From positions 3,855,001 to 3,919,000 of the forward strand of contig JAWHQI010000165.1 of assembly GCA_033032865.1 (NCBI GenBank): 64,000 bases of DNA, read 5' to 3'. Below are positions 17,180-58,842 of this stretch, piece after piece. The first letter of the stretch is position 1. Each line of letters begins with the position of its first letter. The translations under genes were made by a program, and so were the position numbers. The stretch is from Dactylorhiza incarnata (Eukaryota; Streptophyta; Magnoliopsida; Asparagales; Orchidaceae). Under the pieces are notes generated by a model. The model ran no database searches and was not told where the DNA came from. It worked only from the letters and a program-made list of their open reading frames with translations.

Positions 17180-18728
17180 TGATGAGTCCTGATTATATAC
17201 ACCTTCATGGACTCATCCGGGCCATTATTTAGTCAATATCACGCACTTTAGCCTTATTATAGTTTATAATTGATAACCCATGCTAGGTGCACATTTTGGC
17301 CCACTTTGGTGTGTTTTCGTGTTTATTTCCTTTCATAGTACTCATATGTTGTTAAGTGCCACTTTCGGTGGCTAGATCTGTGTTTGTGCTGGAATAGGAG
17401 GCGTGCAAGTGTTTCCGGTGCAATTCTGCACAGGAACACTGCGCACGATCACTTGTTCTAGTGCGCACGACCACTGGTCGTGCGCCACTGATCGTGCGCA
17501 CTTAGCCCCTTTTTACGAGTTCTGTCTGGTGCAGTGCGCACGCCCATCAACTCCAGTGCGCACGACCACCGGTCGTGCGCCACTGTCCGTGCGCACTTAA
17601 TAGTAATTTTATGAGTTCTGTCTCACCTATTGCGCACGACCACCGACGCTAGTGCGCACGATCAACGGTCGTGCGCCACTGGTCGTGCGAGCATTTTATT
17701 TTATAATTTCATCTCTTGCAGGTTCTGTCCAGGCAGTGCGCACGATCGCAGGATTCCAGTGCGCACGACCACTGGTCGTGCGCCAATGATCGTGCGCAGT
17801 GTTTAATCCAGCGCCTATTTATTGACCTGTTCGCGAATTAGGTCGGGATCACGCAACTCTGCTCCGTTCAGTCCGCCGTTTTCGCCGTTTTCAGGGGATT
17901 TTCACCCCCTAGGCCTCCTCCATCATCCAAAGGCTTAAAGGAAGGGTTCCTACACTCACTTTGACCGCTAAGGAAGAGGTTCTCCGCAATAGACGTGGCC
18001 GGATTGTAAATCGCTGGAGAAGACGGGTCCATTGGGAGGTGTGACAGCCCTCTTCTACCCCGGACGCAGTTGGGACCGAGCTAGGACGCGGATTGACAAC
18101 CCGGTGCTTCCTACCGTAAATCTACAACGAGACTCCAGATTCGGTCGTATCTCTTGCCTTTTTCCTCTATTTTTGTGGTTATGTGTGATGTATTCTCTTT
18201 ATCTTGATGATGAACACTATGAATCATGCCTAATGTTGCTTATTTCATGTTTATGAAATTATTTTGTTCATTTGTGTCATTGAGGTGCGCTTTATTTCAT
18301 TTTCCATCCCACCGCCACGATCGGTGCCGCACTAGCAATTGCTAGTGGCGTGCTTGACGAAGAGGTGCTCGCGACCCTCACTCCGCTTGCCTTCTCGTCC
18401 ATCCGCTCTTTTGACGCAGCGCGCTCAAGGCCTGCCTAGTCTCCATCTCACCAAGCGAAGCATTGCATAGCAGCACTGCATAGGAGTAGTGGTAATATTT
18501 ATTTTAAGTATTCACAAACCCCCAAAGCCCTTTCATTCGCATTCCGCCTTTCGCAGGACTTCAATCTCAAGTCTTTCCTCGATAATAAACTCCACCTTAC
18601 TGTGTTCCTTGAGAGATTCGATACTCGGGGATTACTCCTCGTTTTATATTACTTGAACGATCGGTACACTGCCGTTTCGTGCCGCAGTCGAGCTACCGCC
18701 TATAGCGGTGTGTGAGATTTGCGCATCA
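17180..18728 (+). repeat. 5' LTR of P1
   Basis: TGATGAGTCC...GCGCATCA. Between 17400 and 17805 it has an array of CGCACGA/TCGTGCG words, including a 23-base palindrome at 17463-17485 (arms GCGCACGACCA / TGGTCGTGCGC). A weak TATA-like CTATTTATT is at 17815-17823. Short ORFs in it are repeated exactly in the other LTR and are not genes. Confidence 0.95.
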
Positions 18729-18734
18729 AGTTTT

Positions 18735-18752
18735 TGGCGCCGTTGCCGGGGA
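18735..18752 (+). other. Primer binding site, tRNA-Asp type (P1)
   Basis: TGGCGCCGTTGCCGGGGA, six bases after the 5' LTR; it complements the 3' end of plant tRNA-Asp and is the usual Athila-lineage primer site. M1 and P2 carry the same 18 bases at the same spacing. Confidence 0.9.
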
Positions 18753-18939
18753 ACACAGTCGTGTGAGTTTTCTGGAGAGGGAGAATCTGAGAGAGAAGCC
18801 CTTTTCATTTGTAAATTGCATCTTTTATTTTTATTTCTGTCTTTTTATTCCTTTTTCTTGATTTTATCAGGTTGCTTTAGTAATTTTTGTTAGGAGAAGT
18901 ATTTTGCACATTTTGTTTGAAGCGTTTTATCTTCACATT

Positions 18940-20136
18940 ATGTGGGCACAATTCAATTTCCGTTGCCGTTGGTGTGGAGCTACCTCCCACTCTAGTGATG
19001 AATGCCCTACGGAGAATAGTAGGCATAATTCTTCTCGCCCAGCATATGGAGCACCGACTTCGTCTGGTACCTCTTATGGTGCGCGTAAGTCTTATGGCTA
19101 CTCTGCTGAGCCTTTACCGTCGTACTTCTTTTCGGCTCCAGCCCCCGCTGTGCCAAAGAAGCCCGCTAGGCAGTGCCAGTTTTGTCGGAGCACAGATCAT
19201 GCCCTGAAGGATTGTGCTGCTTTTCGTCGCCAATTGGATGAGGATGACGAGCCGGATATCCGGATCGTCCCAACTCCTAACTCTTGCGGCACACCTTCAA
19301 CATCCGGTTTTGTGTCTTTGCCACCTTCACATCTTGAAGGGTATGGCGTTGACACAGTCACCAGATGTGTGGCTGATTTGGGCACCGACATGGCTGAATC
19401 TATTCTCCCAGTGCATCCACCACTTCTTGTGGAACCGATTCTTCCCGCTGTTGTGCATTCTACGCTCGTCTCCGACGACATTGTCGATGAGGTGTCACAA
19501 GAGGAGGCGGTTGATCTTAGTGTTGTGCCTATTCCTATGGAGGAGGAAAACCTTCTAGGTGAAGAGGAGTTTTCCTCAACACCGGTGGAGGAAGTCCAAA
19601 TCCTAAGCCTGGCCACCGTTGATCCCGCCGACTCTTGTAGCATTGATGACAATGCTAACATTATTTTACTTCCCCAACCTGATGGGAGTGAGACCGGGAC
19701 CACTCCCTCGATTTCTGATTATTTATGTTCTTCGCCTTGTTTATTTCTTGATCCCCCTTCTTCATCCGAGCCTGTGCAGGTTGAGTCTTCGCAGGTATCC
19801 CAGGAGGACTTGGAGCTTTTTGCTCAAGTCAATGATGAGAGCATCCTCTCATGTGAGGAGGTTTATTCCCCCTCCGTAGAGGAAGCTCCACTCATTGCCT
19901 TCTCCCCCTGCTGCCTCCCTGTTGACGACACCTTGCTAGGCAAGGATGTGTTTTGTGAGATGAGTGAGGACCAGGCCTCCTCCTTTTCTTACATTCTCTA
20001 CCCTCTACCTGTGAGGAGCAGGTATCTATATTTAGGTAGAGGGGTGGTTGTTCTATCACCGTATCGGTACCCGCTACCGACACGGATATTAGGCCAGTTA
20101 CCTGTCCACTTCTCCTTCCATAGGCCCATTAGTTAG
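18940..20136 (+). CDS. P1 protein: two N-terminal CCHC zinc knuckles and a long acidic tail
   Basis: 398 residues from the ATG at 18940, chosen because the M1 homologue begins at the matching methionine (MWAQFNF / MYSAFNI). Two knuckles of form C-x2-C-x4-H-x4-C are seen: C9-C12-H17-C22 and C79-C82-H87-C92, joined by a Ser/Tyr/Gly/Pro-rich linker. The rest is strongly acidic. GSETGTTPSISDYLC (from residue 249) is the core shared with M1, P2 and M2. A C-terminal block, LLGKDVFCEM then SSFSYILYPLP and YLGRGV (about 332-368), is shared with M1. CCHC knuckles in Gag bind element RNA, so an RNA-binding or packaging role is inferred. There is no capsid, protease or polymerase motif. I do not recognise the full-length protein. 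It is the only long ORF in the element and is intact. Confidence 0.85.
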   Translation: MWAQFNFRCRWCGATSHSSDECPTENSRHNSSRPAYGAPTSSGTSYGARKSYGYSAEPLPSYFFSAPAPAVPKKPARQCQFCRSTDHALKDCAAFRRQLDEDDEPDIRIVPTPNSCGTPSTSGFVSLPPSHLEGYGVDTVTRCVADLGTDMAESILPVHPPLLVEPILPAVVHSTLVSDDIVDEVSQEEAVDLSVVPIPMEEENLLGEEEFSSTPVEEVQILSLATVDPADSCSIDDNANIILLPQPDGSETGTTPSISDYLCSSPCLFLDPPSSSEPVQVESSQVSQEDLELFAQVNDESILSCEEVYSPSVEEAPLIAFSPCCLPVDDTLLGKDVFCEMSEDQASSFSYILYPLPVRSRYLYLGRGVVVLSPYRYPLPTRILGQLPVHFSFHRPIS

Positions 20137-21870
20137 AACCTTCATGTTTTTAAATAAGTCGTGCTGGGATGACAATAACCCCAGTAGTTATCTTACTTTT
20201 CATGCATTTTATTTTAATCCATCCTGTTTAGTTAGCTGTAGTTTATTGTAGTTTATCTTTTTCTGTTTCTTTTGTTTTTGCGGAGCTGACCCCTGCAGGT
20301 ATCTTCTTCTGGATGGCGGATGCTGCATCTTAGTCTAGGTTTAAACGCCAATCTTCTGGCATGCTCACTTGCTGAGCATTGGGTACTCTCTTCCCTTAGC
20401 CCTATTTTGATTTTCTTGTCATATGTTATGCAGATTGTTTAGCTTAAGTCTGGGGGAGAGTAGTTTTGTTTACCCGCTCACGTGCACTATTGCACTGCAT
20501 ACTAGAAGATTTCATTTAAAATATTTTGTTTATTTTTATTGCACACCACAGCACCCACTTTAGCGCGCGCTTAGCCGTTGGCACGTCGTGAGTTGAATTT
20601 GTCTTTTTGTGTGATTTGGAAAATCATTGTGCTGGCTTAGGATTATGAGGCAGAGTAAAATGTTGACTCCTGTAGTGCTCCTAGTCGAGTGCTCATGTCT
20701 CGTTTAGAAATTCGTGTAGATTCAATTTCTTTTTATGCTTTTAGCTTATATTTTTCTATTAGCGTAAATATTGTTTACTTTACTCAAAATTTGGTGAATC
20801 CGGTGTGAATCAAACGGTAGCATAGGAATGTGTGTAGACGTTCGTTAGTCTCGTATTGCCCGAGTCGGGAGGATGGATTATCTTTCTCGGTGGCTAGAAC
20901 TTGCCCCAAGCGATTCTTGAAGCATGGGTATATGGTTAGTCAATTGCGTGAATGTGATATAGGCCATCATTTTGGCCCGATTGAGCCTTTGTGCCCACTC
21001 CTATCACTTTATCCTCATTAGCCCAGTTGTGCCTACCCTTTCTTTGATTCAGCCCCACTTTTTATTTCACCAAAGCCCAAAAGCCAATCCTAGTCGCACA
21101 CCCAAATCTGAGCTTTAGCTGTTTATTATTTTCATGTGTTGGGTTGTTGATGTGGTGATATGTTTGTGAAGATGTGGATGTGTCTTATTGTTTATTTGCT
21201 GAAAATGATAAGATAAGAAAAGAAAAAAAAATGAGAAAAAGAAAAGAAGTTAAAAAGAAATGAAAGAGAAAGAGTGTTTAATTGAAAATCTTTATGTAAA
21301 GATTTATGTTTGGGAGTAGGCGGTGCACACACCCATGTAGTCAAATCCAAGTCTGGGGGTGTGGTGTACCCGCGTATTTGTGTGGTGAATGAGGAGAATT
21401 TCTGCACTAGCTCATTTGGGTTTAGTATTTGAGCCATCGTCTTTATCATTGTATTCCTCACCTAAACCCAAGCCCCATTTAAAACCTAAAGTCCTATTGA
21501 TTCACGCATTTGAGTCAAACCAGTGCCGTGGAGAGAGTGCGAACGGGCAAGCTTATGGCCACCGACATTGATGGATTTCAATGGAGTTGTCTCGAGCCCC
21601 GATCTTTGGCAATGCTCGCCTTAGCGTTCAGTCTACTTTCTTTCTATGTACAACCTTATGATTCACCGTGATTCACTTTTTGAGTAAACTTAATATATAA
21701 ATACGCTCCTAGAAAATTTTAAACTAATATGTATAATTAGAAATTTTATCTACTGTATTTCTACGCACATGAGCATGCGACTTCGCATGGTACTCCGCTT
21801 GATAATTTCTATTCCAACTTATGTTTTTCTTGTCCGCGTAAGAGATGGTTTGCTCGGGACGCGCAAACAG
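20137..21870 (+). other. Conserved non-coding 3' internal region of P1
   Basis: No gene. Blocks recur in M1, P2 and M2: a stem CTGGG-ATGACAATAA-CCCCAG (about 20167-20189); a perfect hairpin ATGCTCA-CTTGC-TGAGCAT (20361-20379) followed by GGGTACTCTC; an internal purine tract AAGTCTGGGGGAGAG (20446-20460), about 1.4 kb before the true PPT; the phrase TGTTGACTCC.GTAGTGCTC (about 20660); and a long block around 20855-20980 with CGAGTCGGGAGGA and TCTTTCTCGGTGGCTA. A further block with GGAGAGAGTGCGAA lies near 21530. Sequence conservation without an open frame suggests RNA-level function. Confidence 0.7.
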
Positions 21871-21885
21871 TTAAGTCTGGGGGTG
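21871..21885 (+). other. Polypurine tract of P1
   Basis: TTAAGTCTGGGGGTG, directly before the 3' LTR. Confidence 0.88.
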
Positions 21886-23434
21886 TGATGAGTCCTGATT
21901 ATATACACCTTCATGGACTCATCCGGGCCATTATTTAGTCAATATCACGCACTTTAGCATTATTATAGTTTATAATTGATAACCCATGCTAGGTGCACAT
22001 TTTGGCCCACTTTGGTGTGTTTTCGTGTTTATTTCCTTTCATAGTACTCATATGTTGTTAAGTGCCACTTTCGGTGGCTAGATCTGTGTTTGTGCTGGAA
22101 TAGGAGGCGTGCAAGTGTTTCCGGTGCAATTCTGCACAGGAACACTGCGCACGATCACTTGTTCTAGTGCGCACGACCACTGGTCGTGCGCCACTGATCG
22201 TGCGCACTTAGCCCCTTTTTACGAGTTCTGTCTGGTGCAGTGCGCACGCCCATCAACTCCAGTGCGCACGACCACCGGTCGTGCGCCACTGTCCGTGCGC
22301 ACTTAATAGTAATTTTATGAGTTCTGTCTCACCTATTGCGCACGACCACCGACGCTAGTGCGCACGATCAACGGTCGTGCGCCACTGGTCGTGCGAGCAT
22401 TTTATTTTATAATTTCATCTCTTGCAGGTTCTGTCCAGGCAGTGCGCACGATCGCAGGATTCCAGTGCGCACGACCACTGGTCGTGCGCCAATGATCGTG
22501 CGCAGTGTTTAATCCAGCGCCTATTTATTGACCTGTTCGCGAATTAGGTCAGGATCACGCAACTCTGCTCCGTTCAGTCCGCCGTTTTCGCCGTTTTCAG
22601 GGGATTTTCACCCCCTAGGCCTCCTCCATCATCCAAAGGCTTAAAGGAAGGGTTCCTACACTCACTTTGACCGCTAAGGAAGAGGTTCTCCGCAATAGAC
22701 GTGGCCGGATTGTAAATCGCTGGAGAAGACGGGTCCATTGGGAGGTGTGACAGCCCTCTTCTACCCCGGACGCAGTTGGGACCGAGCTAGGACGCGGATT
22801 GACAACCCGGTGCTTCCTACCGTAAATCTACAACGAGACTCCAGATTCGGTCGTATCTCTTGCCTTTTTCCTCTATTTTTGTGGTTATGTGTGATGTATT
22901 CTCTTTATCTTGATGATGAACACTATGAATCATGCCTAATGTTGCTTATTTCATGTTTATGAAATTATTTTGTTCATTTGTGTCATTGAGGTGCGCTTTA
23001 TTTCATTTTCCATCCCACCGCCACGATCGGTGCCGCACTAGCAATTGCTAGTGGCGTGCTTGACGAAGAGGTGCTCGCGACCCTCACTCCGCTTGCCTTC
23101 TCGTCCATCCGCTCTTTTGACGCAGCGCGCTCAAGGCCTGCCTAGTCTCCATCTCACCAAGCGAAGCATTGCATAGCAGCACTGCATAGGAGTAGTGGTA
23201 ATATTTATTTTAAGTATTCACAAACCCCCAAAGCCCTTTCATTCGCATTCCGCCTTTCGCAGGACTTCAATCTCAAGTCTTTCCTCGATAATAAACTCCA
23301 CCTTACTGTGTTCCTTGAGAGATTCGATACTCGGGGATTACTCCTCGTTTTATATTACTTGAACGATCGGTACACTGCCGTTTCGTGCCGCAGTCGAGCT
23401 ACCGCCTATAGCGGTGTGTGAGATTTGCGCATCA
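21886..23434 (+). repeat. 3' LTR of P1
   Basis: 1549 bp, same length as 17180-18728 and nearly identical to it. Followed by the target duplication CTTAC and then M1 internal sequence. Confidence 0.95.
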
Positions 23435-23439
23435 CTTAC

Positions 23440-24547
23440 CTGTTTGCGCGTCCCAAGCAAACTATCTCTCATGTGGAGTAGAAAAATCATAAGCTGGCAA
23501 AGTAATTGAATATGTGAAGTACAATGTGAAGTCTCTTACACGCGCGCGTTGAAATTTTAGTAGAAAAACCTTTTAAACATGTGAAATAAATTAGAATTTT
23601 CTAAATTGCGTTTCTACTTATTATTTCTACTCATAATTTGAATCGTGGTGAATCCTTCAATCACACGTAGGGTGAAAGTAGCTCGATCACTAAGTGGAAT
23701 ATTGCCAGAGATCGAGGATCGGGAAAAACTCCAAAGAAATCCATCAATGACGATGCCATAAGCTTGCTCGTTCACACTCTCTCCACGACACTAGTTACGC
23801 TCAGAGTGCGAATCAATAGGACTTTTAGGCTATGATTTAAGCTTAGGCTACGGTGCGGTAAATAATGATAAATGTGGAGGCTTAGCACACCTAACCCAAA
23901 TGAGCTCGCAATAAAAACACTATCCCGGCAGTAATAAAAAAAATGTGTACACCACACCCCCAGACTTAAACATGAAACTATGGGGTGTGTACACCACCTA
24001 TTCCCAAATACACTGCTTTACACATTTTTTTTACTTTCATTTTTTATCACATTTTGTTTTCTTTTCTCTTTTTTTTTAAATTATAACTTTGCACATATAA
24101 TAACAAACACAGCTATATTTTTAATAACGCATTGCCACCACAACCACAAATATACACAGCTTCAACACCCAACTTTTAAATGCACAAATTGCTTGAGCTC
24201 AGAATTTGGTGTGCGATTAGGATAGTCATTTTGGCTTTGGTGAATTGAAGGTGGAGCTGAATCAAATGGTAGGGATTAGGCACAAAAGGGCTAAGCAAGG
24301 ATAGAGCATTTAGGAACGGTGCAAAGGCCCAACCGGGTCAAAGAATGGCCTATATCACACTTGCACAAATGAAATAACCTATACCCATGCTTCGAGAGTC
24401 GCTAGGGGCAAGTTCTTAGCCACCGAGAAAGAACATCCTTCCAACCGACTCGAGCAATATGAGTCTAGCGATCGTTTACATACATCCTATGCTACCGTTT
24501 GATTCACACCGGGTTCACCATTTGAGTAGAGTAAAAAACATTTACAC
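23440..24547 (-). other. M1 conserved non-coding region (part next to its 3' LTR)
   Basis: No gene. In minus orientation it matches the P1 region 20770-21870 and is close to M2 41840-42950. It includes GTTTGCTTGGGACGCGCAA near 23445-23465 and the TCTTTCTCGGTGGCTAAGAA block (about 24415-24440). The TRIM-like array interrupts it at 24548; the flanks rejoin as TTTACAC|TAATAG, matching the uninterrupted P1 sequence at about 20757-20770. Confidence 0.75.
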
Positions 24548-25506
24548 TGAAAGTTGAGTTTTAGTTCTCATTCTTATTATTAAAAGTCTTATTTAACTTT
24601 GTTTCAAATTAAGTGATATATATAAATATATATATGAGTGTTGATTGAGAAAGTAAAAAACAAGCACATAACCAGATGACACAAGATATATAGTAGTTCC
24701 CCAAAACCTGGGTACATATACTCTTCTACCCACTGGTAGGAATCCACTAGGAGGTTGTTGATAAGGTGCCCTCTCACCAAGGTGATTTTGATAAGGTGTC
24801 CACACACCAAGGTGATTTTGATAAGTTGTCCACACACCAATGGGAGTTTTGATCAGGTGCCCAATTCACCTATAAGCTTTTGATAAGGTGCTTATAAACC
24901 AAGCTGCAGGTTTTTGCTAAGGTGCCCTGTCACTGGGAGTAAACTTTTGAAGGGAGTTTTAACCCTTTACAAGATGGGGAGGAGAAAGGGAAAAGATATA
25001 TTGTTCTTCTCTTTTAGCTGAGAAGACACTTGATAATCCAGATTGGATGTTGAGTTGGATCTTGATGAAGATGGTGAAGAGAGCTCCCCCTGTCTGATTT
25101 AGTTGTGGAGACTCCTTAGTTCTGAATCCTCTATTTCAAATGTATGGAGTGGATCACCTCTCATTGTTCTCTGTCGACCTTCACCTTATTTATAGCTCCG
25201 TGTATTAAGATAACACATAGTAATCGACGTACGTCGATTACAATTCGACGTAAGCGTCGAATTCATCCTGGCTGGACGTCGAGAGGAGAATAAGGAAGGT
25301 GTGTCGACAAGAAGTCAGAGCTACGTCGATATAGGATACGTCGAATTCTTATTAAAGTTACTTCGACTAATTCTGAAAGAAACGTCGACAACACTTCGAC
25401 ATTGCGTCGAATACAATTCGACGCATATTTACTTAACCTTGATATTTCTTTCTTAGAATTCATATTCAACTCATTTTGGGGGTTAAGACAAATCATTTTC
25501 CCAACA
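24548..25506 (-). repeat. TRIM-like LTR1
   Basis: 959 bp, TGAAAGTTGAG...TTTTCCCAACA on the plus strand (element sense begins TGTTGGGAAAA). The minus-strand TATA is TTATTTATAG at 25186-25195. Upstream of it in the element sense lie CGTCGA/TCGACG words, including a perfect 22-base palindrome at 25220-25241 (arms GTAATCGACGT / ACGTCGATTAC). Confidence 0.9.
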
Positions 25507-25661
25507 ATCTCCCCCTATTTGTCTTAACCCAGATGACACAAGATATATTAGGAAATCAGAAAAATAATTTTCAGAGAATAAGGGGAGAATAGAGAACTAA
25601 GTGATCTTTGTGATTTCAGGTGTTAGCCTGTGTGAAAAATCAACCTCCCTCTGATACCAAT
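25507..25661 (-). other. TRIM-like internal domain 1 (PPT and PBS)
   Basis: Minus-strand PPT AGGGGGAGAT abuts LTR1 and PBS TGGTATCAGAG (25649-25659) lies two bases from LTR2. Nothing else recognisable lies between. Confidence 0.88.
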
Positions 25662-26588
25662 TGAAAGTTGAGTTTTAGTTCTCATTCTTATTATTAAAAG
25701 TCTTATTTAACTTTGTTTCAAATTAAGTGATATATATAAATATATATATGAGTGCTGATTGAGAAAGTAAAAAACAAGCACATAACCACATGACACAAGA
25801 TATATAGTAGTTCCCCAAAACCTGGGGACATCTACTCTTCTACCCACTGGTAGGAATCCACTAGGACGTTGTTGATAAGGTGCCCTCTCACCAAGGTGAT
25901 TTTGATAAGGTGTCCACACACCAAGGGGATTTTGATAAGGTGTCCACACACCAATGGGAGTTTTGATCAGGTGCCCAATTCACCTATAAGCTTTTGATAA
26001 GGTGCTTATAAACCAAGCTGCAGGTTTTTGCTAAGGTGCCCTGTCACCGGGAGTAAACTTTTGAAGGGAGTTTTAACCCTTTACAAGATGGGAAGGAGAA
26101 AGGGAAAAGATATATTGTTCTTCTCTTTTAGCTGAGAAGACACTTGAAAATCCAGATTGGATGTTGAGTTGGATCTTGATGAAGATGGTGAAGAGAGCTC
26201 CCCCTGTCTGATTTAGTTGTGTAGACTCCTTGGTTCTGAATCCTCTATTTCAAATGTATGGAGTGGATCACCTCTCATTGTTCTCTGTCGACCTTCTCCT
26301 TATTTATAGCTCTGTGTATTAAGATAACACATAGTAATCGACGTACGTCGATTACAATTCGACGTAAGCGTCGAATTCATCCTGGCTGGACGTCGAGAGG
26401 AGAATAAGGAAGGTGCGCTGACTAAGGTGCGTCGACAAGAAGTCAGAGCTACGTCGACATAGGATACGTCAAATTCTTATTAAAGTTACTTCGACTAATT
26501 CTGAAAGAAACGTCGACAACACTTCGACGATGCGTCGAATACTATTCGATGCATTTTTACTTAACCTTGACAAATCATTTTTCCAACA
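25662..26588 (-). repeat. TRIM-like LTR2
   Basis: 927 bp. Shorter than LTR1 and LTR3, mainly because it lacks about 45 bp between CTTGA and CAAATC near 26570, a segment that contains TTCTTAGAATTCATATTC in the other two LTRs. It also has scattered substitutions. Confidence 0.9.
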
Positions 26589-26743
26589 ATCTCCCCATAT
26601 TTGTCTTAACCCAGATGACACAAGATATATTAGGAAATCAGAAAAATCATTTTCAGAGAATAAGGGGAGAATAGAGAACTAAGTGATCTTTGTGATTTCA
26701 GGTGTTAGCCTGTATGAAAAATCAACCTCGCTCTGATACCAAT
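26589..26743 (-). other. TRIM-like internal domain 2 (PPT and PBS)
   Basis: 155 bp, same length and nearly the same sequence as internal domain 1. PBS is at 26731-26741. The PPT is slightly altered (ATCTCCCCAT on the plus strand). Confidence 0.88.
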
Positions 26744-27714
26744 TGAAAGTTGAGTTTTAGTTCTCATTCTTATTGTTAAAAGTCTTATTTAACTTTGTTT
26801 CAAATTAAGTGATATATATAAATATATATGAGTGCTGATTGAGAAAGTAAAAAACAAGCACATAACCAGATGACACAAGATATATAGTAGTTCCCCAAAA
26901 CCTGGGTACATCTACTCTTCTACCCACTGGTAGGAATCCACTAGGAGGTTGTAGATAAGGTGCCCTCTCACCAAAGTGATTTTGATAAGGTGTCCACACA
27001 CCAAGGTGATTTTGATAAGGTGTCCACACACCAATGGGAATTTTGATCAGGTGCCCAATTCACCTATAAGCTTTTGATAAGGTGCTTATAAACCAAGCTG
27101 CAGGTTTTTGCTAAGGTGCCCTGTCACCGGGAGTAAACTTTTGAAGGGAGTTTTAACCCTTTACAAGATGGGAAGGATAAAGGGAAAAGATATATTGTTC
27201 TTCTCTTTTAGCTGAGAAGACACTTGAAAATCCAGATTGGATGTTGAGTTGGATCTTGATGAAGATGGTGAAGAGAGCTCCCCCTGTCTGATTTAGTTGT
27301 GGAGACTCCTTGGTTCTGAATCCTCTATTTCAAATGTATGGAGTGGATCACCTCTCATTGTTCTCTATCGACCTTCTCCTTATTTATAGCTCTGTGTATT
27401 AAGATAACACATAGTAATTGACGTACGTCGATTACAATTCGACGTAAGCGTCGAATTCATCCTGGCTGGACGTTGAGAGGAGAATAAGGAAGGTGCGTCG
27501 ACTAAGGTGCGTCGACAAGAAGTCAGAGCTACATTGACATAGGATACGTCGAATTCTTATTAAAGTTACTTCGACTAATTCTGAAAGAAACGTCGACAAC
27601 ACTTCGACGTTGCGTCGAATACTATTCGACGCATATTTACTTAACCTTGATATTTCTTTCTTAGAATTCATATTCAACTCATTTTGGGGGTTAAGACAAA
27701 TCATTTTCCCAACA
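26744..27714 (-). repeat. TRIM-like LTR3
   Basis: 971 bp, with both termini intact and followed by the target duplication TACAC. Confidence 0.9.
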
Positions 27715-27719
27715 TACAC

Positions 27720-29665: not shown

Positions 29666-29897
29666 GGTGTAGAAGGGGAGAATTCACCGACAGATAAAAT
29701 TTCCTTGCAAAAATTAACTACACGCAAGAAATAAAAAAAATGAATGCCTTCTTTTGATAAATCACAAAATAGATAAGGAATATAAAAAATTTAAAACTAC
29801 AAATTCTAAGAAGTAAAACAAAGAAGAAAATGGTATAAATAAATGGAAAAGGGCTTCTATCTCTCGACTTCCTTTCCAGAAACTCACAAGACTATGT

Positions 29898-45400: not shown

Positions 45401-45454
45401 TTCTCTTGGCGACAGCTGTCTTGTCAAGAATCTTTTGTGGGTCCCACAGTTTGG

Positions 45455-47047: not shown

Positions 47048-47057
47048 CTATAAATAG
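47048..47057 (+). promoter_or_regulatory. TATA box of antisense gene 2
   Basis: CTATAAATAG on the plus strand, 119 bp before the ATG at 47176, followed by a pyrimidine-rich leader. Confidence 0.65.
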
Positions 47058-47175
47058 TTTCACATTAATGTCATTCAACTACCGCTTTCCACTACCCCTT
47101 CATCTTCCCTAGTTGCAGAGCTCTCGCCAGCTTCATTCTCGCATTCTCCTACGCTTATTCTCGCAGGTACTCGAG

Positions 47176-49133: not shown

Positions 49134-49587
49134 AAGGCGATCTTTACTTTGTTGTTTTTTGTCGTGAATTTTTGGGGCTGGCGAGATCGCCGCCCGATGT
49201 AATTAAACTCTTCTTTTGAATGGAAATTTTGTGCATGGCTTCCCTTTTGGCGGTCTGCGTTTTTTCTTCTGCTTTCATTTTCACTCCTAGTTAACTTATG
49301 TATCGAGAACCCTGCTCATTTTACGTGTGCCGAGGACTTTTCTTCTCGACTGGCGAGAATTTCCCCAAGCTTCTGGCTATACTTCTTGGTGAGAAAAAAT
49401 CCGTCCTTATTTTCTTCGCGTGCCGAGGACCCCCCCGCCCCTTCTGTGTTAGAACGAGGAGTTGCCCTCACTTTTGAAGTGCCTTAGACCAAACACGTTT
49501 TTCCTGTTATTCGTGCCGAGGACCCCATTCTCGCCCCGCGAGAAGTCGACCTTGTTTTTAAAGGTCCTTAGGGACCCATAAGAGTCC
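49134..49587. other. 3' flank of gene 2 with a diverged ~93-bp repeat
   Basis: No gene. A likely polyadenylation region follows the stop (GATGTAATTAAACTC near 49196). GTGCCGAGGAC occurs at about 49327, 49420 and 49514, spaced 93-94 bp. These look like degenerate units of an older repeat next to the 96-bp array. Confidence 0.5.
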
Positions 49588-51305
49588 GTTACTTCGCCAG
49601 CCTCTCCGCGAGATCCACCGGCCCCACCAGCTAGCGAGAGCATGGCAGCGGGATCGTCCGGGGCAATCCAGCACTAAGTGTTCGTTACTTCGCCAGCCTC
49701 TCCGCGAGATCAACCGGCCCCACCAGCTAGCGAGAGCCTGGCAGCGGGATCGTTCGGGGCAATCCAGCACTAAGAGTTCGTTACTTCGCCAGCCTCTCCA
49801 CGAGATCAACCGGCCCCACCAGCTAGCGAGAGCCTGGCAGCGGGATCGTCCAGGGCAATCCAGCACTAAGAGTTTGTTACTTCGCCAGCCTCTCTGCGAG
49901 ATCAACCGGCCCCACCAGCTAGCGAGAGCCTGGCAGCGGGATCGTCCGTGGCAATCCAGCACTAAGAGTCTGTTACTTCGCCAGCCTCTCCGCGAGATCA
50001 ACCGGCCCCACCAGCTAGCGAGAGCATGGCAGCGGGATCGTCCGGGGCAATCCAGCACTAAGAGTCTGTTACTTTGCCAGCCTCTCCGCGAGACCAACCG
50101 GCCCCACCAGCTAGCGAGAGCCTGGCAGCGGGATCGTCCGGGGCAATCCAGCACTAAGAGTTCGTTACTTCGCCAGCCTCTCCGCGAGATCAACCGGCCC
50201 CACCAGCTAGCGAGAGCCTGGCAGCGGGATCGTCCGGGGCAATCCACCACTAAGAGTCCGTTACTTCGCCAGCCTCTCCGCGAGATCAACCGGCCCCACC
50301 AGCTAGCGAGAGCCTGGCAGCGGGATCGTCCGGGGCAATCCAGCACTAAGAGTTCGTTACTTCGCCAGCCTCTCCGCGATATCAACCGGCCCCACCAGCT
50401 AGCGAGAGCCTGGCAGCGGGATCGTCCGGGGCAATCCAGCACTAAGAGTCCGTTACTTCGCCAGCCTCTCCGCGATATCAACCGGCCCCACCAGCTAGCG
50501 AGAGCCTGGCAGCGGGATCGTCCGGGGCAATCCAGCACTAAGAGTCCGTTACTTCGCCAGCCTCTCCGCGAGACCAACCGGCCCCACCAGCTAGCGAGAG
50601 CCTGGCAGCGGGATCGTCCGGGGCAATCCAGCACTAAGAGTTCGTTACTTCGCCAGCCTCTCCGCGAGATCAACCGAACCCACCAGCTAGCGAGAGCCTG
50701 GCAGCGGGATCGTCCGGGGCAATCCAGCACTAAGAGTCTGTTACTTCGCCAGCCTCTCCGCGAGATCAACCAGCCCCACCAGCTAGTGAGAGCCTGACAG
50801 CGGGATCGTCCGGGGCAATCCAGCACTAAGAGTTCGTTACTTCGCGAGCCTCTCCGCGAGATCAACCGGCCCCACCAGCTAGCGAGAGCCTGGCAGCGGG
50901 ATCGTCCGGGACAATCCAGCACTAAGAGTTCGTTACTTCGCCAGCCTCTCCGCGAGATCAACCGGCCCCACCAGCTAGCGAGAGCCTGGCAGCGGGATCG
51001 TCCGGGGCAATCCAGCACTAAGAGTTCGTTACTTCGCCAGCCTCTCCGCGAGATCAACCGGCCCCACCAGCTAGCGAGAGCCTGGCAGCGGGATCGTCCG
51101 GGGCAATCCAGCACTAAGAGTTCGTTACTTCGCCAGCCTCTCCGCGAGATCAACCGGCCCCACCAGCTAGCGAGAGCCTGGCAGCGGGATCGTCCGGGGC
51201 AATCCAGCACTAAGAGTCCGTTACTTCGCCAGCCTCTCCGCGAGATCAACCGACCCCACCAGCTAGCGAGAGCCTGGCAGCGGGATCGTCCGGGGCAATC
51301 CAGCA
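49588..51305 (-). repeat. Tandem array, 18 x 96 bp, in the Tat 3' region
   Basis: Unit starts GTTACTTCGCCAGCCTCTCC (plus strand) at 49588, 49684, 49780 and so on, every 96 bp to 51305, about 17.9 units with only scattered substitutions. 96 is a multiple of three, so stop-free frames run through it on both strands (590 codons minus, 307 codons plus). It lies just 3' of integrase in the element sense. Arrays at this site are known in Tat/Retand elements and can seed satellites. Confidence 0.95.
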
Positions 51306-51390
51306 TTGTTACTCGTTTCTTGGAACTCATAATTAGTATAAAAACGACTCATGAAAGGTGATATGCAAAGATCATTATATTATAATAATC

Positions 51391-52577
51391 TTATGGATAG
51401 AAACTCTTCAAGTCATCCCCACTTCTGGCTCGGCCGAGGGGTACCCCCTCCACATCCTGGAGCTGGTACCCTCCCGATCTTAGCACTTCACTTACAATAT
51501 ACGGACCTTCCCAGTTGGGGTTGAGCTTGCCAACCGCGGCTCCCCTTCCGGCTGCATCAACCTTTTTTAGTACCAAATCCCCCTTCTGGAAGTGTTTTAC
51601 TCGTATATATTTGTCGAAGTACTTGGCCATCCGCCTTTTTTCACTTCCTCCTGCCTAAGGGTAGCCAGGTCTCGGAGTTCCTCCACTAGGTCCAAAGACA
51701 ACCTTTGGCCCTCTTCGTTGTCCGCTCTCTATTCGTCACCTCCATCTCCTGCGGTGACCACCCGAGGTGACTTGACTTCAAACTCAACCGGGAGGACGGC
51801 CTCGGATCCGTGGGATAGTTTGAATGGGGTCTCTCTGGTGGCCGTGTTCGGGGTGGTCCACAGAGCCCAGAGGACCGAGGGTAGTTGCTCCACCCAACTC
51901 CCTCTGAGGTTTTCGATCTTCTTCTTGAGGAGGTTCACTATAATTTTGTTCGCCGCCTCTACTTGCCCGTTACTCCTTGGGTGGTGGACCGACGCGAACC
52001 TGAGATCTATGCCGAGCTGAGTACAGAAGCTGACGAACTCGTCACTCGCGAACTGCGGCCCGTTATCCGTGACAATGGCTAGAGGAAGCCCGTGCCTGCA
52101 GATAATCTCACCCCAAATGAAGTTTTTTACCACTTGGGAGGTTACCTTGGCCAGTGCCTTCGCCTCGATCCACTTGGAAAAGTAGTCGACCATCACTAGC
52201 AAGAACCTCCTTTGACCGCTTGCCTGGGGGAAAGGTCCTACCAGATCTAGCCCCCAGATTGCGAATGGTCAAGGGGCCGTGATCGTTCTTAGCATCTGGG
52301 CAGGGAGGAGTTGGAGAGGGGCGTAGAGTTGGCACTTGGAACACTTCCTGGAGAACTCGGCCGCATCCTTGCTGAAGGTGGGCCAGAAGTAGCCTTGCCT
52401 TAACACTCTTCCTTCCAGGGTTCTGCTTCCCGAGTGGCTGCCACACTCTCCTGAGTGAATCTCCTCCAGGACCCTCGGGGCTTCGTCCTCCGAGACGCAA
52501 CGGGCCAGGAGCCCCGAGAGAGTCTTTCTATACAGCATCCCTGCATGCAAGGAGTAGTAAGCCGATTTATACCTGAG
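51391..52577 (-). pseudogene. int: Tat integrase, three in-frame stops
   Basis: Continues the Pol frame beyond the stop at 52580-52578. The zinc-binding HHCC region (IHSGECGSH, then KCSKCQ) is at about 52460-52330. The catalytic triad D-D-E is present: GLDLVGP, VTDNGPQFASDEF and SNGQVEAANK. The C-terminal chromodomain-free tail includes YIRVKHFQKGDLVLKK, LNPNWEGPYIV and SGDDLKSFYP. Stops: TGA at 52580, TGA near 52270 (just before IWGLDL), and TAG near 51728 (after GGDE). The two TGAs are consistent with mutated tryptophan codons, since the other Tat copy has Trp at the 52270 position. Integrase would insert the cDNA; this copy cannot make a full-length enzyme. Confidence 0.9.
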
Positions 52578-55571
52578 TCATCGCTTGTCGACTTCACCTT
52601 CGGGGAACTTCCCGGAGGTTAGGAAAGTGACGAAGGGATCCATCCATGACGCTCGCTGATCCACTTCCATCAGCTCTCCCTCTTCAATGGAAGGTCGGAA
52701 GAGTTCCGACACGGTTCCCCCAATCTGAGGGCCAAACTTGGCCAGGAGATCTGCCTGGGTACTTTCTTCTCTGGGGATATGTTTGATCGAGAAAGTTCGG
52801 AACTCTCCCACCACCCCCTTGACCTTTTCCAAGTACCGCTGGAGGGTTGGTTCCTTGACCTTGAACTCTCCCTTGACTTGGCAAGCAATGACCATGGAGT
52901 CCATCGAGACCTCTACGTCTTGCACCCCTAGCTCCCGAGCCAAACGGAGGTCTGCTATCACTGCTTCGTATTCTGCCTGGTTGTTGGTGAGGGGAAAATG
53001 GAAGTGGATGGCTTGCTCTATCCTGGTCCCTTGGGGACTGACCAGGACCACTCCTCCTCCAAAAGAGTGTCTTCCGGACGCTCCATCTACTAACATTTTC
53101 CAAGGCATCGGATGGGGTAGCTCTGATTCTTCCACCTCAGTAACGTAGTCAGCCAGGAAATCCGCCACCGCCTGAGCCTTTATGGATACCCTTGGTACAT
53201 AAGAGACATTGAATTCACTCAGCTCCACCGACCACTTAGCCAACCTCCCCGAGTGTTCTACTCCCTCCATGATATTGCGGAGGGGGTGGTCGGTCACCAC
53301 TTTTATGGAGTGCGCCTGGAAGTAGGGTCGGAGTTTCCGGGCCGACACCACCAGAGCGAAGGCCAGCTTCTCTAAAATGGGATATCTAAGTTCGGCCTTC
53401 CTCAGCACCCTACTCACGTAGTAGATCGGTAGCTGTTTCTTCCCTTCTTCTCGGACCAGCACGGAACTCACAGCCTCCAACCCTACCCCCAGATACAGAG
53501 ATAGGTCCTCCCCAGGTCTTGGCCCCTGCAGTAGCGGAGCCCTGGTCAGTTGTTCTTTCAATGCTTGAAAAGCCTTCTCGCACTCGGAGGTCCATTCGAA
53601 TTTTTGATTACCCCGTAGCACCTTGAAGAAAGAAGAGCACCTCTCCCCTGCCTTGGAGAGAAATCTACTTAGCCCAGCCAGCTTTCCCGTCAAGCGTTGG
53701 ATCTCTTTAGCGTTTCTTGGGGGTGCCAATTCTAGAATTGCCTTAACCTTGTCTGGGTTGGGCTCCACCCCCGCCGGGGTGAGCATGTGACCCAGGAATT
53801 TTCCCCGACTGGCTCCGAAGACACACTTCGAGGGATTGAGCCTCATCTTGAACTTCCGTAGGGTTCCGAAAGTCTCCTCGAGGTCTCGGAGGTGGGACTC
53901 AAGACCTCGGCTCTTGACCATGAGGTCATCGACATAGACCTCCAGGTTTCTCCCCTTTTGCTCACGGAAGACCCGGTCCATCATCCTTTGGTATGTGGCC
54001 CCTGCATTCTTGAGCCCGAAGGGCATCATCTTGTAACAATAGCATCCATCCCTCGTGATGAAGGAGACATCCTTGATGTCAGGGGGATGCATGCGGATCT
54101 GGTGATAACCTGAAAAAGCATCTAAGAAAGACATCATGTGAAAACCGACGGCTGAGTCAACCAGCGCGTCGATTCTAGGCAGGGGGTAACAATCCTTCGG
54201 GCATGATTTATTAAGCAAAGAGAAATCGATACACATTCGCCATTTACCTCCACCTTTCTTTACCATGACGACGTTGGAGACCCAGCCTGGGTACTGGATC
54301 TCCTTTACAAAACCTGCTTTCAAAAGCTTTTCCACTTCCTCGCGGATGGGCCCCTCCAGCTTGTCTGCTGTGGGCCTCTTCTTCTGGCGGTTGGGGCGGG
54401 CGCCGGGCTCAAGGTTGAGGCGGTGGCAAGCCACATCCGCGTCTATCCCGGGCATCTCTGCGACACTCCAGGCAAAGACGTCCACGTTCTTCTGGACGCA
54501 AGCGAGGATCTCCGTCCTCTCCTTTGGGTTGAGCTCTCCGCTGACCCGGATCTTCTCTATCACTCCTAGTCGAGTGGTGACCTCCAGCTCAATGACCTCG
54601 TCCACGGCCTCCAATCGCGACTGTTCCCCCCAAGGTCTCTCCTCCTCTCCTCCGTCGGCGAGCTCTAGGGCTCTTCCTTCTTCCTCCTCCATCTCCATCA
54701 CCTCCTCTGTCACCTTTTCTTTGGCCTTCCCTTCCTCCTTTCCTCCCTCTTCCCTTCTCTCCACCTGGGGTCCCTCAGCACCCCCTTCCTGGGTACGAAT
54801 TTCTTCCCCCTCCTCCCCCTCTTCTTCCTCTTCCTTCTCCCCTCCTGCCTCGGTTGCCTCATACATCCTCTTCTCCCACTCCTCTGCTTCTCCCATCCAG
54901 GAGATGGTGTTGACAGCCGTCATATAGCACTGTCTTGCCATCTTGGGGTCTCCACGAACTCGGACTTGGATTCCACCTGTGTTGAACTTTAGGCACTGGT
55001 GCAGGGTGGAAGGTACGCATCGAAATGCACTAATAAGGGGCCGACCGAAAATGGCGCTATAGCTGCTCGGGGCGTCTACAATCACGAACCGGCAGTTTCG
55101 CGACTGCCCCCCGAGGGTCACATGGAGTCCTACTCCTTCCTCCACCTCCTTTCTTTCCCCCGAAAAACCAAACAGGGGGCCACCCGAGGCTAGCACCCTT
55201 CGGGCCTCTACCTTCATCTCATCGAACGCCTTCTTGAAGATGACGTTGACTGAACTCCCATTGTCTACCAAGATTCGCGAGACGGTGAAGTTCTCAATGG
55301 CAGTTTGGATAACCAGTGCATCGTAGAACAGATCTTCATGACCGGGCATATCTTTCTGGGAGAAGGTGATCCTCTCCACCGGGGGCGGGGCTTGGGATGT
55401 CGAGGCTACGCTCCGACGGTACATGACATGGAGGCTCGCCTTCCGGGTTGCCTCGATCCCCACTCCCCCATGGATCACCCCGATCCCTCCTCGAGCTCCT
55501 ACATCCACCCGGTCCTCGCACCTCTCTTCATCGTCTCCCTGGGCTAGACTTCTTCGATCCTCACCGGGCAC
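52578..55571 (-). CDS. pol: Tat Pol: protease, reverse transcriptase, RNase H and second RNase H
   Basis: 997 codons without interruption, beginning at a GTG, so expression would need read-through or frameshifting from Gag; the frame overlaps the 3' end of gag (55544-55571) in a different phase. Protease loop LVDNGSS (D103). A glutamate-rich spacer (about 240-335). RT from about 375: KWRMCIDFSLLNKSCPKDCY, FLDAFSGYHQI, MPFGLKNAGATYQRMM, catalytic YVDD at 546-549 and KFLGH. The first RNase H (about 690-800) looks degenerate (SLYLGVGLEAVSSVLV). The second RNase H has D829, E867, D891 and D941 (MLVDGASG, NNQAEYEAVIADL, MDSMVIACQVKGEF, ESTQADLLAKF), which marks the Tat lineage. The open frame suggests this copy is much younger than the plus-strand Tat. 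Confidence 0.93.
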   Translation of the reverse strand: MPGEDRRSLAQGDDEERCEDRVDVGARGGIGVIHGGVGIEATRKASLHVMYRRSVASTSQAPPPVERITFSQKDMPGHEDLFYDALVIQTAIENFTVSRILVDNGSSVNVIFKKAFDEMKVEARRVLASGGPLFGFSGERKEVEEGVGLHVTLGGQSRNCRFVIVDAPSSYSAIFGRPLISAFRCVPSTLHQCLKFNTGGIQVRVRGDPKMARQCYMTAVNTISWMGEAEEWEKRMYEATEAGGEKEEEEEGEEGEEIRTQEGGAEGPQVERREEGGKEEGKAKEKVTEEVMEMEEEEGRALELADGGEEERPWGEQSRLEAVDEVIELEVTTRLGVIEKIRVSGELNPKERTEILACVQKNVDVFAWSVAEMPGIDADVACHRLNLEPGARPNRQKKRPTADKLEGPIREEVEKLLKAGFVKEIQYPGWVSNVVMVKKGGGKWRMCIDFSLLNKSCPKDCYPLPRIDALVDSAVGFHMMSFLDAFSGYHQIRMHPPDIKDVSFITRDGCYCYKMMPFGLKNAGATYQRMMDRVFREQKGRNLEVYVDDLMVKSRGLESHLRDLEETFGTLRKFKMRLNPSKCVFGASRGKFLGHMLTPAGVEPNPDKVKAILELAPPRNAKEIQRLTGKLAGLSRFLSKAGERCSSFFKVLRGNQKFEWTSECEKAFQALKEQLTRAPLLQGPRPGEDLSLYLGVGLEAVSSVLVREEGKKQLPIYYVSRVLRKAELRYPILEKLAFALVVSARKLRPYFQAHSIKVVTDHPLRNIMEGVEHSGRLAKWSVELSEFNVSYVPRVSIKAQAVADFLADYVTEVEESELPHPMPWKMLVDGASGRHSFGGGVVLVSPQGTRIEQAIHFHFPLTNNQAEYEAVIADLRLARELGVQDVEVSMDSMVIACQVKGEFKVKEPTLQRYLEKVKGVVGEFRTFSIKHIPREESTQADLLAKFGPQIGGTVSELFRPSIEEGELMEVDQRASWMDPFVTFLTSGKFPEGEVDKR

Positions 55572-57010
55572 TGCTGTGGCTGCAGTGCTGGGCCCCTTGC
55601 TTCCCTCACCTCCAGAAATTCCGAACAGGTGGCTGTCGCGTGACTTTCCTCCTGGTGGAAATCGCAGTATGGCAACGTCGCCACCCTCCCCTCGCCTCCT
55701 GCTCCTCTATTCCTCCTCCTGGGACCAGCTCCCCCGGCTCCCGCTCCCCTTCCTCTTCCTGCTCTTCCTCTCCCGATCTCCATTGCTTGTTGAGGCGGGG
55801 GAGGAGGCGGCCTCGGGCCTTGCCTCCACCCCAGCTGATGGGGTCTTCCCTGTCCTCCCTGGAAGTTACCTCCCCCGTGGTGGAACCCCCTCCCCGGGCC
55901 CTGTGCCCCACCACCTTGCTGCCTCCACCCCAACTCCGGGGCCCTGACTTCCTCCCTTCTCCTTCCTTCCGGTTGCCTATTCTCCGGCTCGCTTAGCCGT
56001 GCCAACCTCTTTGTGAACTCGGGGTTTGCTGCCTCCCCGTCCACCTCCTCCGCCGCTCTTTCCATCAATTCCTCGTAGGATAGAGGGGCCCTCCTCTTGA
56101 GGTCCATCTTGAAGAATCCCTCTCGTAGCCCCACCGTGAAGGCCAGCTGGAGAGTATGCCCGGGCACCTCTTGAATGAGGAGGACCTCCTCCCTGAACCG
56201 CTCCAGATACTGAGCTAGGGACTCCCCCTGCTTTTGCTTGATACTGAAAAGGGACTCGGGGTCCTTCTTCCTCTTCTTCAAGGTAGAGAAACGTAGTAGG
56301 AACCCCCTACGCAAGTCTTCGAAGGCATAGATTGATCCCGAGGGTAACTGGTAAAATTAATCCCTTGCCTTCTCCTTCAGGGTGGTGGCGAAGAGTCGGC
56401 ACTTGAAGGCGTCCGACTTAGGTCTAATCGAGACCATATCTTCAAACCACTGTAAGTGGGGAATGGGATCGCTGTTGCCAATGTACAACGTCATGTTCGG
56501 CTCCCTGAATCCCTCGGGGAGTGGTGCCGAGAGCACCAACTCACAGAAAGGGCTCCCCCCACTCACCCTCTGAACTGGTTCCACTCTTCCTGCGAGACCT
56601 CCTGCCGACGTCTCCCCTGTTGTCCTCGGATTTGCCGAGTACACCGTCGGCGGGATCCCTTCTGCCGAGATCACCCTGACCGGGACCTCGCCCGCCCCCG
56701 CTGGGCTGGGGAAGAGTTCTCGACCAGCGAGATCTCGGCCTACTTCCTGGGCCGTCGTCTCTTTTCCCGCTCGATGTCCTGGGGCGTTCTCGCCAGCCCC
56801 AGATGGAGGAGCCATCTGAGGGGCCGGGGTCGTGAAACCACCCATCGCCGAGGCGATGGCGCTTTGAAAAGCCCCAATCATGTCCCTTTTGAGCTCGGTC
56901 AGCATATCCATCGTCACCGGCGTTCCCGCGGGTGGCGAGCCTCCGAACCCCGCATCTCGCTCGTCCTCGCCCGCCATGCTTTTTCCTAGGGACTTTCTTG
57001 AACTAGTCAC
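55544..57010 (-). pseudogene. gag: Tat Gag with one in-frame stop
   Basis: Starts ATG at 57010 (MTSSRKSLGKSMAGEDERDA). The core begins IPHLQWFEDMVSIRPKSDAF and FATTLKEKARD, is cut by TAA near 56356 where the other copy has Trp, and resumes FYQLPSGSIYAFEDLRRGF, FREEVLLIQEVPGHTLQLAF and LMERAAEEVDGEA. The C-terminal third is Gly/Arg/Pro-rich (RGFHHGGGNFQGGQGR), then a zinc finger of form C-x2-H-x4-H-x4-C (YCDFHQEESHATATC). The stop at 55546-55544 lies in a different frame from pol. Gag forms the particle and binds element RNA. Confidence 0.88.
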
Positions 57011-57034
57011 TCTCCACGCTCACCGCACCAAGAA
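57011..57034 (-). other. Tat primer-site region
   Basis: The minus strand after the LTR end reads TTCTTGGTGCGGTGAGCGTG, shared with 44566-44589 and, with changes, 37274-37294. This is the PBS position; the tRNA is not identified. Confidence 0.6.
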
Positions 57035-57787
57035 TGTTGAAACCAGAATCTGGTTTCTAGTGGAGTCCGGGGCCCCCAATGGGTTGGGGGGCGACTAGTG
57101 CTTACTTGTCCTGTGGAGAAGGTATGACGGGGTTTCAGAACTCAACGCGGATCCTTAAACTCAGCAGGGAGGTCCCACCACACACCCGGAAGATCTTTTA
57201 GATTGTTTCCCCTCCAGAGCCAAAGCTGAGGCCCGGGCACCTTGGAGAGCTCTAGGGAGTCTCGACAAGGATGATCAGAGGAGAGAGAAGCCTCAAAACC
57301 GGAAAAAAAATCCTCTCCAAAGGTGCCCTTTGGGTCTTATTTATAGTTCTTCTAAACTGGTCTGCGAATAGTGGAAACCCGCCTTCTAGTTTTACTAAGC
57401 ACACCCCAACCTGGTCTGCTAACAGCCAAACTCCGCTGTTCGGAGCGGCTATCTGCAGACCCCCAGGTGCAAAAGAGTAATTCTAACTTCCAGTCCCCTG
57501 GAAGAAGGGTCTGCGAGATCGGCTTGTTTCCCGACCTCGCTAAAAGACATGCGAGAATCCCTGCCGCCTCTGCGACTTCATGGGTCTCGCGGGACCTGCA
57601 GAACGCGGCTTTCCCGCGGGTAGAGCGAGACACTTCCCGCCGAATACTTTGGCGAGACTAGTGTTCACCCACTGATCTCGCCTTATTCTAGTTGCCGAGA
57701 CCTTCTAGAAGGTGATCTCGCCTATGCCATTTGGAAAACTGTTCTGCGAGCTCTATGGGAGGAGCCAGACGAACCCGGGGTTGTACA
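57035..57787 (-). repeat. Tat 5' LTR, truncated
   Basis: Matches 44590-45343. TATA is at 57337-57346 (minus strand). It stops within GGTTGTACACAA, where it joins the M2 LTR; the bases CAA are common to both parents at the junction. Confidence 0.85.
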
Positions 57788-58842
57788 CAACTCAAACAAC
57801 AAACATTTCACATAGACATGAAATATATAGAAATACAAACTAGTTTAAGTGCAATTTCATCTTAATAAATAGATCTAACTACATACACATCAATAAGAGA
57901 AGAATAAGGCAAGAAATCGACCGAATCCGAAGTCTCGTTGTAGATTCACGGTTGGACTCGCTGGGTTGTCAATCCGCGTCCAAGCTCGGTCCGCAACTAC
58001 GTCCGGGGTAGAGAAAGCTGTCACTACTGTCCAATAAGCCCGTCTTCTTCGTGTCACGATCCGGTAGAGGTTGCAAACTTCCTCTTGCTTGATGGTGATG
58101 GCGGCTAGGTCTTCCCTTAGATTGCTAGGATGAAGGAGGAGGCCGAGAGGAAGCTCCGGCTCAAGATTGGCGTGAAGAACAAGCCCGGAGCACCTCCAGA
58201 TGGTGGGCGGCGATGGAGGGGCGAAGTGGGCGATCTGGAGCAAGAAACGGCGCTGAAATAGACCTAAAATGCGGGTTAGGGCGGAAGAATTCGTGAAAAC
58301 GCGTATTTATAGAAAGCAGAATTTTGAACGGGCACGATCAGTGGCGCACGACCAGTGACCGTGCATGAAGGAATGCCAGTGATAGTGCGCGAAGAACCTG
58401 TAGCATAATCCCGGAGTGCAGAATTAGCGCACGATCAGTGGCGCACGACCAGTGGTCGTGCGCACTATTGTCAATGGTCGTGCGATAAGCCAAACAGAAC
58501 TCATAAAATGGGCGTTAAGTGTGCACGATCAATGGCGCACGACCAGTGGTCGTGCGCGATAGAGCCAGTGATCGTGCGCAGTGTTCCTGTACAGATTTTT
58601 ACCGGGAACACCTGCACGACTCCTGTTCCAGCATACAACACCAGTCTAGCCACTGAAGGTGGCACTTAACGCTGCATGAAAACTAGTAACGAAGATGAAC
58701 AAGAAATAACATCAAAACGGGCCTAGAAGTGCACTTAGCATGGAGTATTAAATAGGAATGAAAACATGTCTAAAGTGAAGTGCAAAGACTAGAAAATCGG
58801 CCCAGATGAGTCCAAAAATGTATATATAATTGGGACTCATCA
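57788..58842 (-). repeat. 5' LTR of M2, truncated
   Basis: Equivalent to 40787-41839 of the left LTR and very similar to it. TATA and the CGCACGA/TCGTGCG array are retained. The part of the LTR that should adjoin the primer site is missing. Confidence 0.9.

Follow-up and report, generated by a model that had tools for sequence, protein, structure and literature searches.

The window analysed here is a 64,000-nucleotide stretch of the orchid Dactylorhiza incarnata (contig JAWHQI010000165.1, positions 3,855,001 to 3,919,000). It contains four long terminal repeat (LTR) elements, P1 and P2 on the forward strand and M1 and M2 on the reverse strand, and in all four a single acidic protein, called GSETG after a short motif in its core, occupies the place of gag-pol. 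Positions refer to the whole window, and the element structures were obtained by comparing the window with itself and inspecting the junctions (Table 1). The LTR pairs match in each element, with the 5' LTR of M2 shortened. P1 is flanked by a target-site duplication of CTTAC (17175-17179 and 23435-23439, 5/5 bases), and between its LTRs there are 2 differences in 1549 bases, in agreement with the very recent movement that a sequence-only reading had proposed. The duplication of P2 (CTATT/CTATC) agrees at 4/5 bases and its LTRs differ at 40 of 1384. At the outer ends of M1 and M2 the duplications GGAGG and GAGGT agree at 5/5 bases each, and the LTR pairs differ at 105 of 1737 and 18 of 1055 compared bases, respectively. 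P1 thus moved recently, and all four elements have moved in the past. The insertion point of P1 lies in the purine tract of M1, 10-15 bases from the M1 LTR (17164-17180), with the target-site duplication within the tract.

All four elements described in the sequence-only reading are real, although M1 reaches further left than that reading had it, to 15430. M2 is not intact. A Tat-type element is nested in it at about 44341-57790, the end of its 5' LTR, its primer site and the N-terminus of its protein are lost, and the protein has one in-frame stop.

Table 1. Positions of the four elements, their GSETG proteins and their replication signals in the window
Feature	Position	Strand	Remarks
Element P1	17180..23434	+	6255 bp; LTRs 17180-18728 and 21886-23434
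Element P2	30715..36194	+	5480 bp; LTRs 30715-32103 and 34811-36194; located inside M1 5' LTR
Element M1	15430..37140	-	interrupted by P1 and P2; 5' LTR 37140-36195 plus 30714-29922; 3' LTR 17164-15430
Element M2	40232..58842	-	3' LTR 41839-40232; 5' LTR from 58842, truncated at ~57788
P1 GSETG protein	18940..20136	+	398 aa; isoelectric point (pI) 4.3; first ATG past LTR, 211-nt ATG-free leader
P1 two CX2CX4HX4C knuckles	18964..19215 (18964-19005, 19174-19215)	+	motif match
P1 GSETG core	19684..19698	+	motif match
P2 GSETG protein	32229..32999	+	256 aa; pI 4.8; without knuckle; tail B with basic stretch
M1 GSETG protein	28406..29665	-	419 aa; pI 4.1; first ATG past LTR, 256-nt leader; C-terminus out of frame
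M2 GSETG protein remnant	43680..44339	-	M1-like acidic part, P2-like tail B, one in-frame stop
P1 primer binding site, tRNA-Asp	18735..18752	+	18/18
P2 primer binding site, tRNA-Asp	32110..32127	+	18/18
M1 primer binding site, tRNA-Asp	29898..29915	-	18/18
P1 purine tract AAGTCTGGGGGTG	21873..21885	+	adjoins 3' LTR

Athila-type ends and mosaic structure

The Athila-type ends proposed for these elements were found. The LTR start TGATGAGTCC occurs at 7 sites of the window against 0.15 expected, the count being 7 rather than 8 because the 5' LTR of M1 starts with TAATGAGTCC, and the purine tract AAGTCTGGGGGTG precedes the 3' LTR in 4/4 elements. The primer sites of P1, P2 and M1 match tRNA-Asp and lie 6 bases past the LTR; such a site a few bases past the LTR is a feature of the Athila lineage, and that of M2 has been lost. 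Soybean Diaspora, a relative of Athila, has a tRNA-Asp primer site that starts 5 bp past the LTR (PMC1142308). The site alone is no proof of Athila, since non-chromovirus lineages use tRNA-Asp among other primers (PMC6317226). In the LTRs of P1 (17440-17799), P2 and M2 a GC-rich TGCGCACGA repeat and its complement are followed by a TATA-like sequence; the repeat is absent from the M1 LTR. The purine tract core AAGTCTGGGGG also recurs inside the 3' regions, once or twice in each element: in P1 (20446, 21349), P2 (33397), M2 (43276, 42378) and M1 (23967). These additional copies could serve as further primers of the plus strand or be remnants of former LTR junctions.

The four elements are mosaics. 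Along 1112 bases of their 3' internal regions M1 and M2 have 91% identity, yet no match of 60 bases or more links the first 600-690 LTR bases of the two. The first 415 LTR bases of P1 are common to M2 (77%) and not to M1. P2 shares its first 70 LTR bases with M1 and M2, and the GC-rich repeat and two short stretches near the LTR end with P1 and M2. The M2 protein resembles M1 in its acidic part and P2 in its tail. This pattern is that of template switching, which may be the mechanism that produced it.

The GSETG protein and its modules

The GSETG protein is the one long sense open reading frame (ORF) of P1, M1 and P2. These three frames are open, as had been read from the sequence, with the end of the M1 frame out of frame relative to P1. 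When the internal regions were shuffled 1000 times, no sense ORF exceeded 187 aa in P1 or 208 aa in P2, so the P1 and P2 frames are longer than expected by chance. In addition, only 270/20000 shuffled P1 leaders and 196/20000 shuffled M1 leaders were free of ATG, and the GSETG proteins aligned far better than shuffles in 4/4 pairs tested. The GSETG protein is not a chance ORF.

The protein had been described as acidic, with a core GSETG-x-TP-x3-D-x-LC and, in P1 and M1, two N-terminal CCHC knuckles. GSETG is present in all four elements and the P1, M1 and P2 proteins are acidic (Table 1), but the M1 core has Phe at the position of the Asp. P1 has both knuckles, a combination found in 0/20000 shuffles of its residues 1-110, whereas M1 has one intact knuckle and a second with Asp in place of His. 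The C-terminal part occurs in two forms: tail A is found in P1, M1 and P0001, a protein of the orchid Platanthera guangdongensis, and tail B, which includes the stretch PLKDWLQGGKR and then a basic part, is found in P2 and M2. Along P1 the net charge is negative in the central part and turns positive in the final block.

Selection, domain searches and the relation to Gag

In the knuckle part of P1 and M1 (110 gap-free codons) the three codon positions differ at 36, 35 and 60 of 110 sites (Fisher 1.3e-4). The ratio of nonsynonymous to synonymous proportions (pN/pS) is 0.41, with 0/1000 column shuffles equally low, and the corresponding rate ratio (dN/dS) in the two other frames is 1.21 and 1.00. 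The codon positions and the column shuffles were preferred over the bootstrap interval because synonymous sites are saturated and 462/1000 replicates are undefined. These codon patterns clearly point to purifying selection on the knuckle module. In tail B of P2 and M2 (36 gap-free codons) pN/pS is 0.31, with 5/1000 shuffles equally low, and dN/dS is 0.15 with a bootstrap that leaves out undefined replicates; this is a weaker sign that tail B may also be under purifying selection. Earlier dN/dS values for P1-P2 (0.76) and P2-M2 (0.75), with intervals that include 1, were obtained from blocks picked by amino-acid identity, which biases them downward, and are not relied on. Within the coding sequence, the gaps between P1 and M1 are 21, 33, 39 and 27 bases in P1 and 1 base in M1 near the end (the frameshift), that is, 4/5 are multiples of three, compared with 3/12 of the gaps beyond the stop.

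One alternative is that the protein acts on the host, for instance as a nuclear acidic factor for transcription or against silencing of its own LTR. Residues 111-248, in the long acidic middle of P1, include 26 acidic residues and 1 basic one, accessory ORFs are known in plant LTR elements (PMC7264820), and in an orchid LTR element an accessory ORF with m6A demethylase activity has been reported (PMC9289625). However, the clearest signal of selection comes from the knuckles, whose motif is of a nucleic-acid-binding type, and not from the acidic part, where the codon positions differ equally between P1 and M1 (0.51/0.49/0.51), and a role of this kind is considered quite improbable.

Pfam was scanned at E<=1 with sense stop-free stretches of at least 75 aa from the four internal regions, except for two that cross an LTR border. 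In the ORFs and sense stretches of P1, P2, M1 and M2 that were scanned, Pfam detected neither an enzyme nor Gag (no Gag, reverse transcriptase or integrase domain), and in P1 no sense stop-free stretch of at least 75 aa follows the GSETG gene before the 3' LTR is reached. The earlier conclusion that the elements are non-autonomous and carry Athila-type cis signals is supported. The proteins of P1, M1 and P2, P0001 and the M2 remnant have no match at E<=1 to PF03732 (Retrotrans_gag) or to Athila ORF-1 (PF03078). Gag is visible to the method: a comparable scan of the broken Athila gag present in the window gave a hit to PF03732 (3.5e-4), although this hit, too, falls below the Pfam cut-off. All Pfam traces of the elements were below the cut-off (E 0.05-0.9, including a zinc-knuckle trace in P1 at E 0.76); as functional clues these stray traces and a PDB match (E 1.3) were treated as noise.

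A strongly reduced Gag would provide another origin for the protein. In this case an Athila Gag would have kept its nucleocapsid end, capsid and pol would have been lost, and the remnant would have been fused to a fast-evolving spacer, with RNA binding as the only role. The GSETG protein does stand at the gag position, and many Arabidopsis Athila families have kept gag, lost pol and show purifying selection (PMC2410132). The knuckles of P1 also share the CX2CX4HX4C spacing with the Gag of an Athila relative (PMC1142308), so a Gag-derived origin of the knuckles themselves is possible. The earlier statement that the protein is not a deleted Gag is supported as far as no capsid is detectable and no Gag family is matched at E<=1. 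Against a reduced Gag stand this lack of a family match and the comparisons with two pieces of the window's Athila gag (303-902 and 902-1264), of which 13/14 were unremarkable, with 33 to 472 of 500 shuffles doing equally well; in the strongest comparison, that of the M2 remnant with one piece, 4/500 did so. On this evidence a reduced Gag is unlikely. An origin from the window's own Athila gag was rejected for want of convincing similarity, and a resemblance by eye of the P2 N-terminus to a Gag coiled-coil stretch is not claimed, as 41/500 P2 shuffles score equally.

With P1 as query against 5.8 billion proteins, 7981 candidates yielded a single protein at E<=1, namely P0001, a hypothetical protein (E 2.8e-33, 49% identity over half of the P1 query) without N-terminal knuckles. 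P2 had no homolog at E<=10 among 593 candidates, and a five-sequence profile matched only P0001, itself a member of the profile. Such missing matches say little, because the search requires shared five-residue words and the content of plant transposon proteins in the database is uncertain. No function was indicated for the GSETG proteins by Pfam, solved structures or the protein database. A literature text search found no account of a GSETG protein, although a text search cannot detect a sequence family.

A possible packaging adaptor and comparable known systems

The reading preferred here, with a probability of about 0.45, is that P1, P2, M1 and M2 are diverged mosaic LTR elements with Athila signals that are likely copied in trans by a complete relative, and that their acidic protein, in which no capsid is detectable, is a nucleocapsid-like adaptor to the particles of that partner. 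RNA of the element would start in the LTR, and in P1 and M1 its first AUG would yield the GSETG protein. The knuckles (P1, M1) or the basic tail stretch (P2, M2) may bind this RNA while the acidic middle may contact the Gag of the partner. The partner's reverse transcriptase, primed by tRNA-Asp, would then copy the element in trans, and its integrase could use the LTR ends common to both. From the sequences, a role as packaging adaptor is plausible. A more specific proposal, in which front zinc knuckles, an acidic hub and a basic tail are exchangeable modules of a capsid-less adaptor that boards partner particles, and are traded in the same way as the LTRs, is tentative and on the doubtful side.

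Several results weigh against the adaptor reading. The P2 protein has no knuckle at all, and the start of its ORF is preceded by three ATGs after the LTR. P0001 has ESDTG at the position of GSETG. AlphaFold2 gave no confident structure for P1 (mean predicted local distance difference test score 34.7 on 3 sequences). In tail B the codon positions differ at 8, 9 and 14 sites, which is not significant (14/36 vs 17/72, Fisher 0.12), and its 36 codons were chosen where the P2 and M2 proteins align. The part from GSETG to tail A shows no constraint between P1 and M1 (pN/pS 0.81, 496/1000 shuffles equally low), so the core that gives the protein its name does not emerge as selected. Synonymous differences are few in this part (dS 0.24), and the noncoding region 3' of it is also close in P1 and M1, with 67-84% identity per window of comparison. 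The sequence-only reading had looked to dN/dS over many genomic copies; selection was tested on one sequence pair each (P1-M1, or P2-M2 for tail B), and constraint appeared in the knuckle domain and more weakly in tail B but not in the GSETG-tail A part.

The neutrality of tail A would suit a spacer ORF without present function, in elements that need only their cis signals and whose open frame is a relic. The M1 and M2 proteins are broken, and in Arabidopsis an LTR element that has no intact ORFs is able to transpose (PMC8704663). This account is nevertheless very improbable in view of the selection on the knuckles and, more weakly, on tail B, the frame-keeping indels, the ATG-free leaders and the presence of a relative in another plant record.

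Reports exist on systems comparable to the proposed adaptor elements, and the suggestion that nothing similar had been described did not hold. In wheat, RLG_Sabrina_NA has its Gag-Pro region replaced by wholly different sequences that encode short proteins, and its likely autonomous partner is RLG_Wilma (PMC9744471). The same study provides a precedent for trans mobilisation with tRNA-Asp priming and conserved LTR starts. As in RLG_Sabrina_NA, the elements described here have a tRNA-Asp primer site, a terminal CA, an unrelated short protein instead of Gag-Pro, and an LTR start conserved across diverged families (the first nine bases in wheat, ten here). The finding that Gag-Pro is replaced and that diverged elements have the LTR start and primer site in common comes from a comparison of just P1, P2, M1 and M2. 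The GC-rich motif followed by a TATA-like box in P1, P2 and M2 also resembles the Wilma, Sabrina and WHAM LTRs of wheat (PMC9744471). Unlike the present elements, the wheat variants carry unique segments and differing short proteins, of which two have a capsid-like fold (PMC9744471); here one protein family, with knuckles in P1 and M1, varied tails and signs of selection, recurs across diverged elements, a comparison that does not extend to sequence homology. In Arabidopsis, Athila families without pol keep Gag or Env ORFs intact, purifying selection acts on these ORFs, and distant families recombine (PMC2410132). This resembles the pol-less, mosaic elements of the window, except that the latter have no detectable Gag or Athila ORF-1 domain. 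The kind of element is therefore already known from the wheat and Arabidopsis examples.

Other non-autonomous elements are similar in part. RLG_Quinta and its partner RLG_Cereba of wheat centromeres likewise involve a one-ORF element with the primer site and LTR ends of the partner and recombination between lineages; they differ in being centromere-specific, with a CR domain in the partner integrase and an ORF that encodes a clear GAG together with a domain of unknown function (PMC11302176). TR-GAG elements share the LTRs, a single ORF at the gag position and presumed mobilisation in trans but are defined by a GAG domain (PMC8704663, PMC6022998). Two LTRs with GAG, or GAG plus protease only, would place an element there, and no GAG domain is detectable here. 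By the LARD rule, an LTR element of at least 2000 bases without known domain (PMC6022998), P1 and P2 would qualify by length and by content, yet they encode a protein, a case that the rule does not foresee. Neither PF03732 nor PF03078, the latter reported for 16% of Athila elements (PMC6317226), marks an Athila Gag in them at E<=1, and the elements are for this reason filed under Athila-type signals and not as complete Athila.

As far as these searches go, what is new is the protein family itself, its build of knuckles and acidic part without detectable capsid, its occurrence in diverged elements and the selection on one separate module. These elements bear on the question why some non-autonomous elements retain a protein with the role of neither an enzyme nor a capsid. 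Here, one protein recurs in diverged elements, bears the mark of selection in one identifiable part and is present in the very young P1, and a direct test is therefore feasible.

Other features of the window

In the 3' region of M1 (24548-27714) a stretch of ~1.1 kb is directly repeated, giving three copies that are about 96-97% alike and each contain a 30-bp tandem repeat. A Copia element at 3633-10194 has LTRs that are 98.5% alike and an open ORF of 1227 aa on the minus strand (RVT_2, integrase). Inside the Tat-type element nested in M2, a 96-bp tandem array occupies 49483-51414, with 18 in-register copies of a 300-base reference listed, and a repetitive ORF of 590 aa lies at this array on the minus strand.

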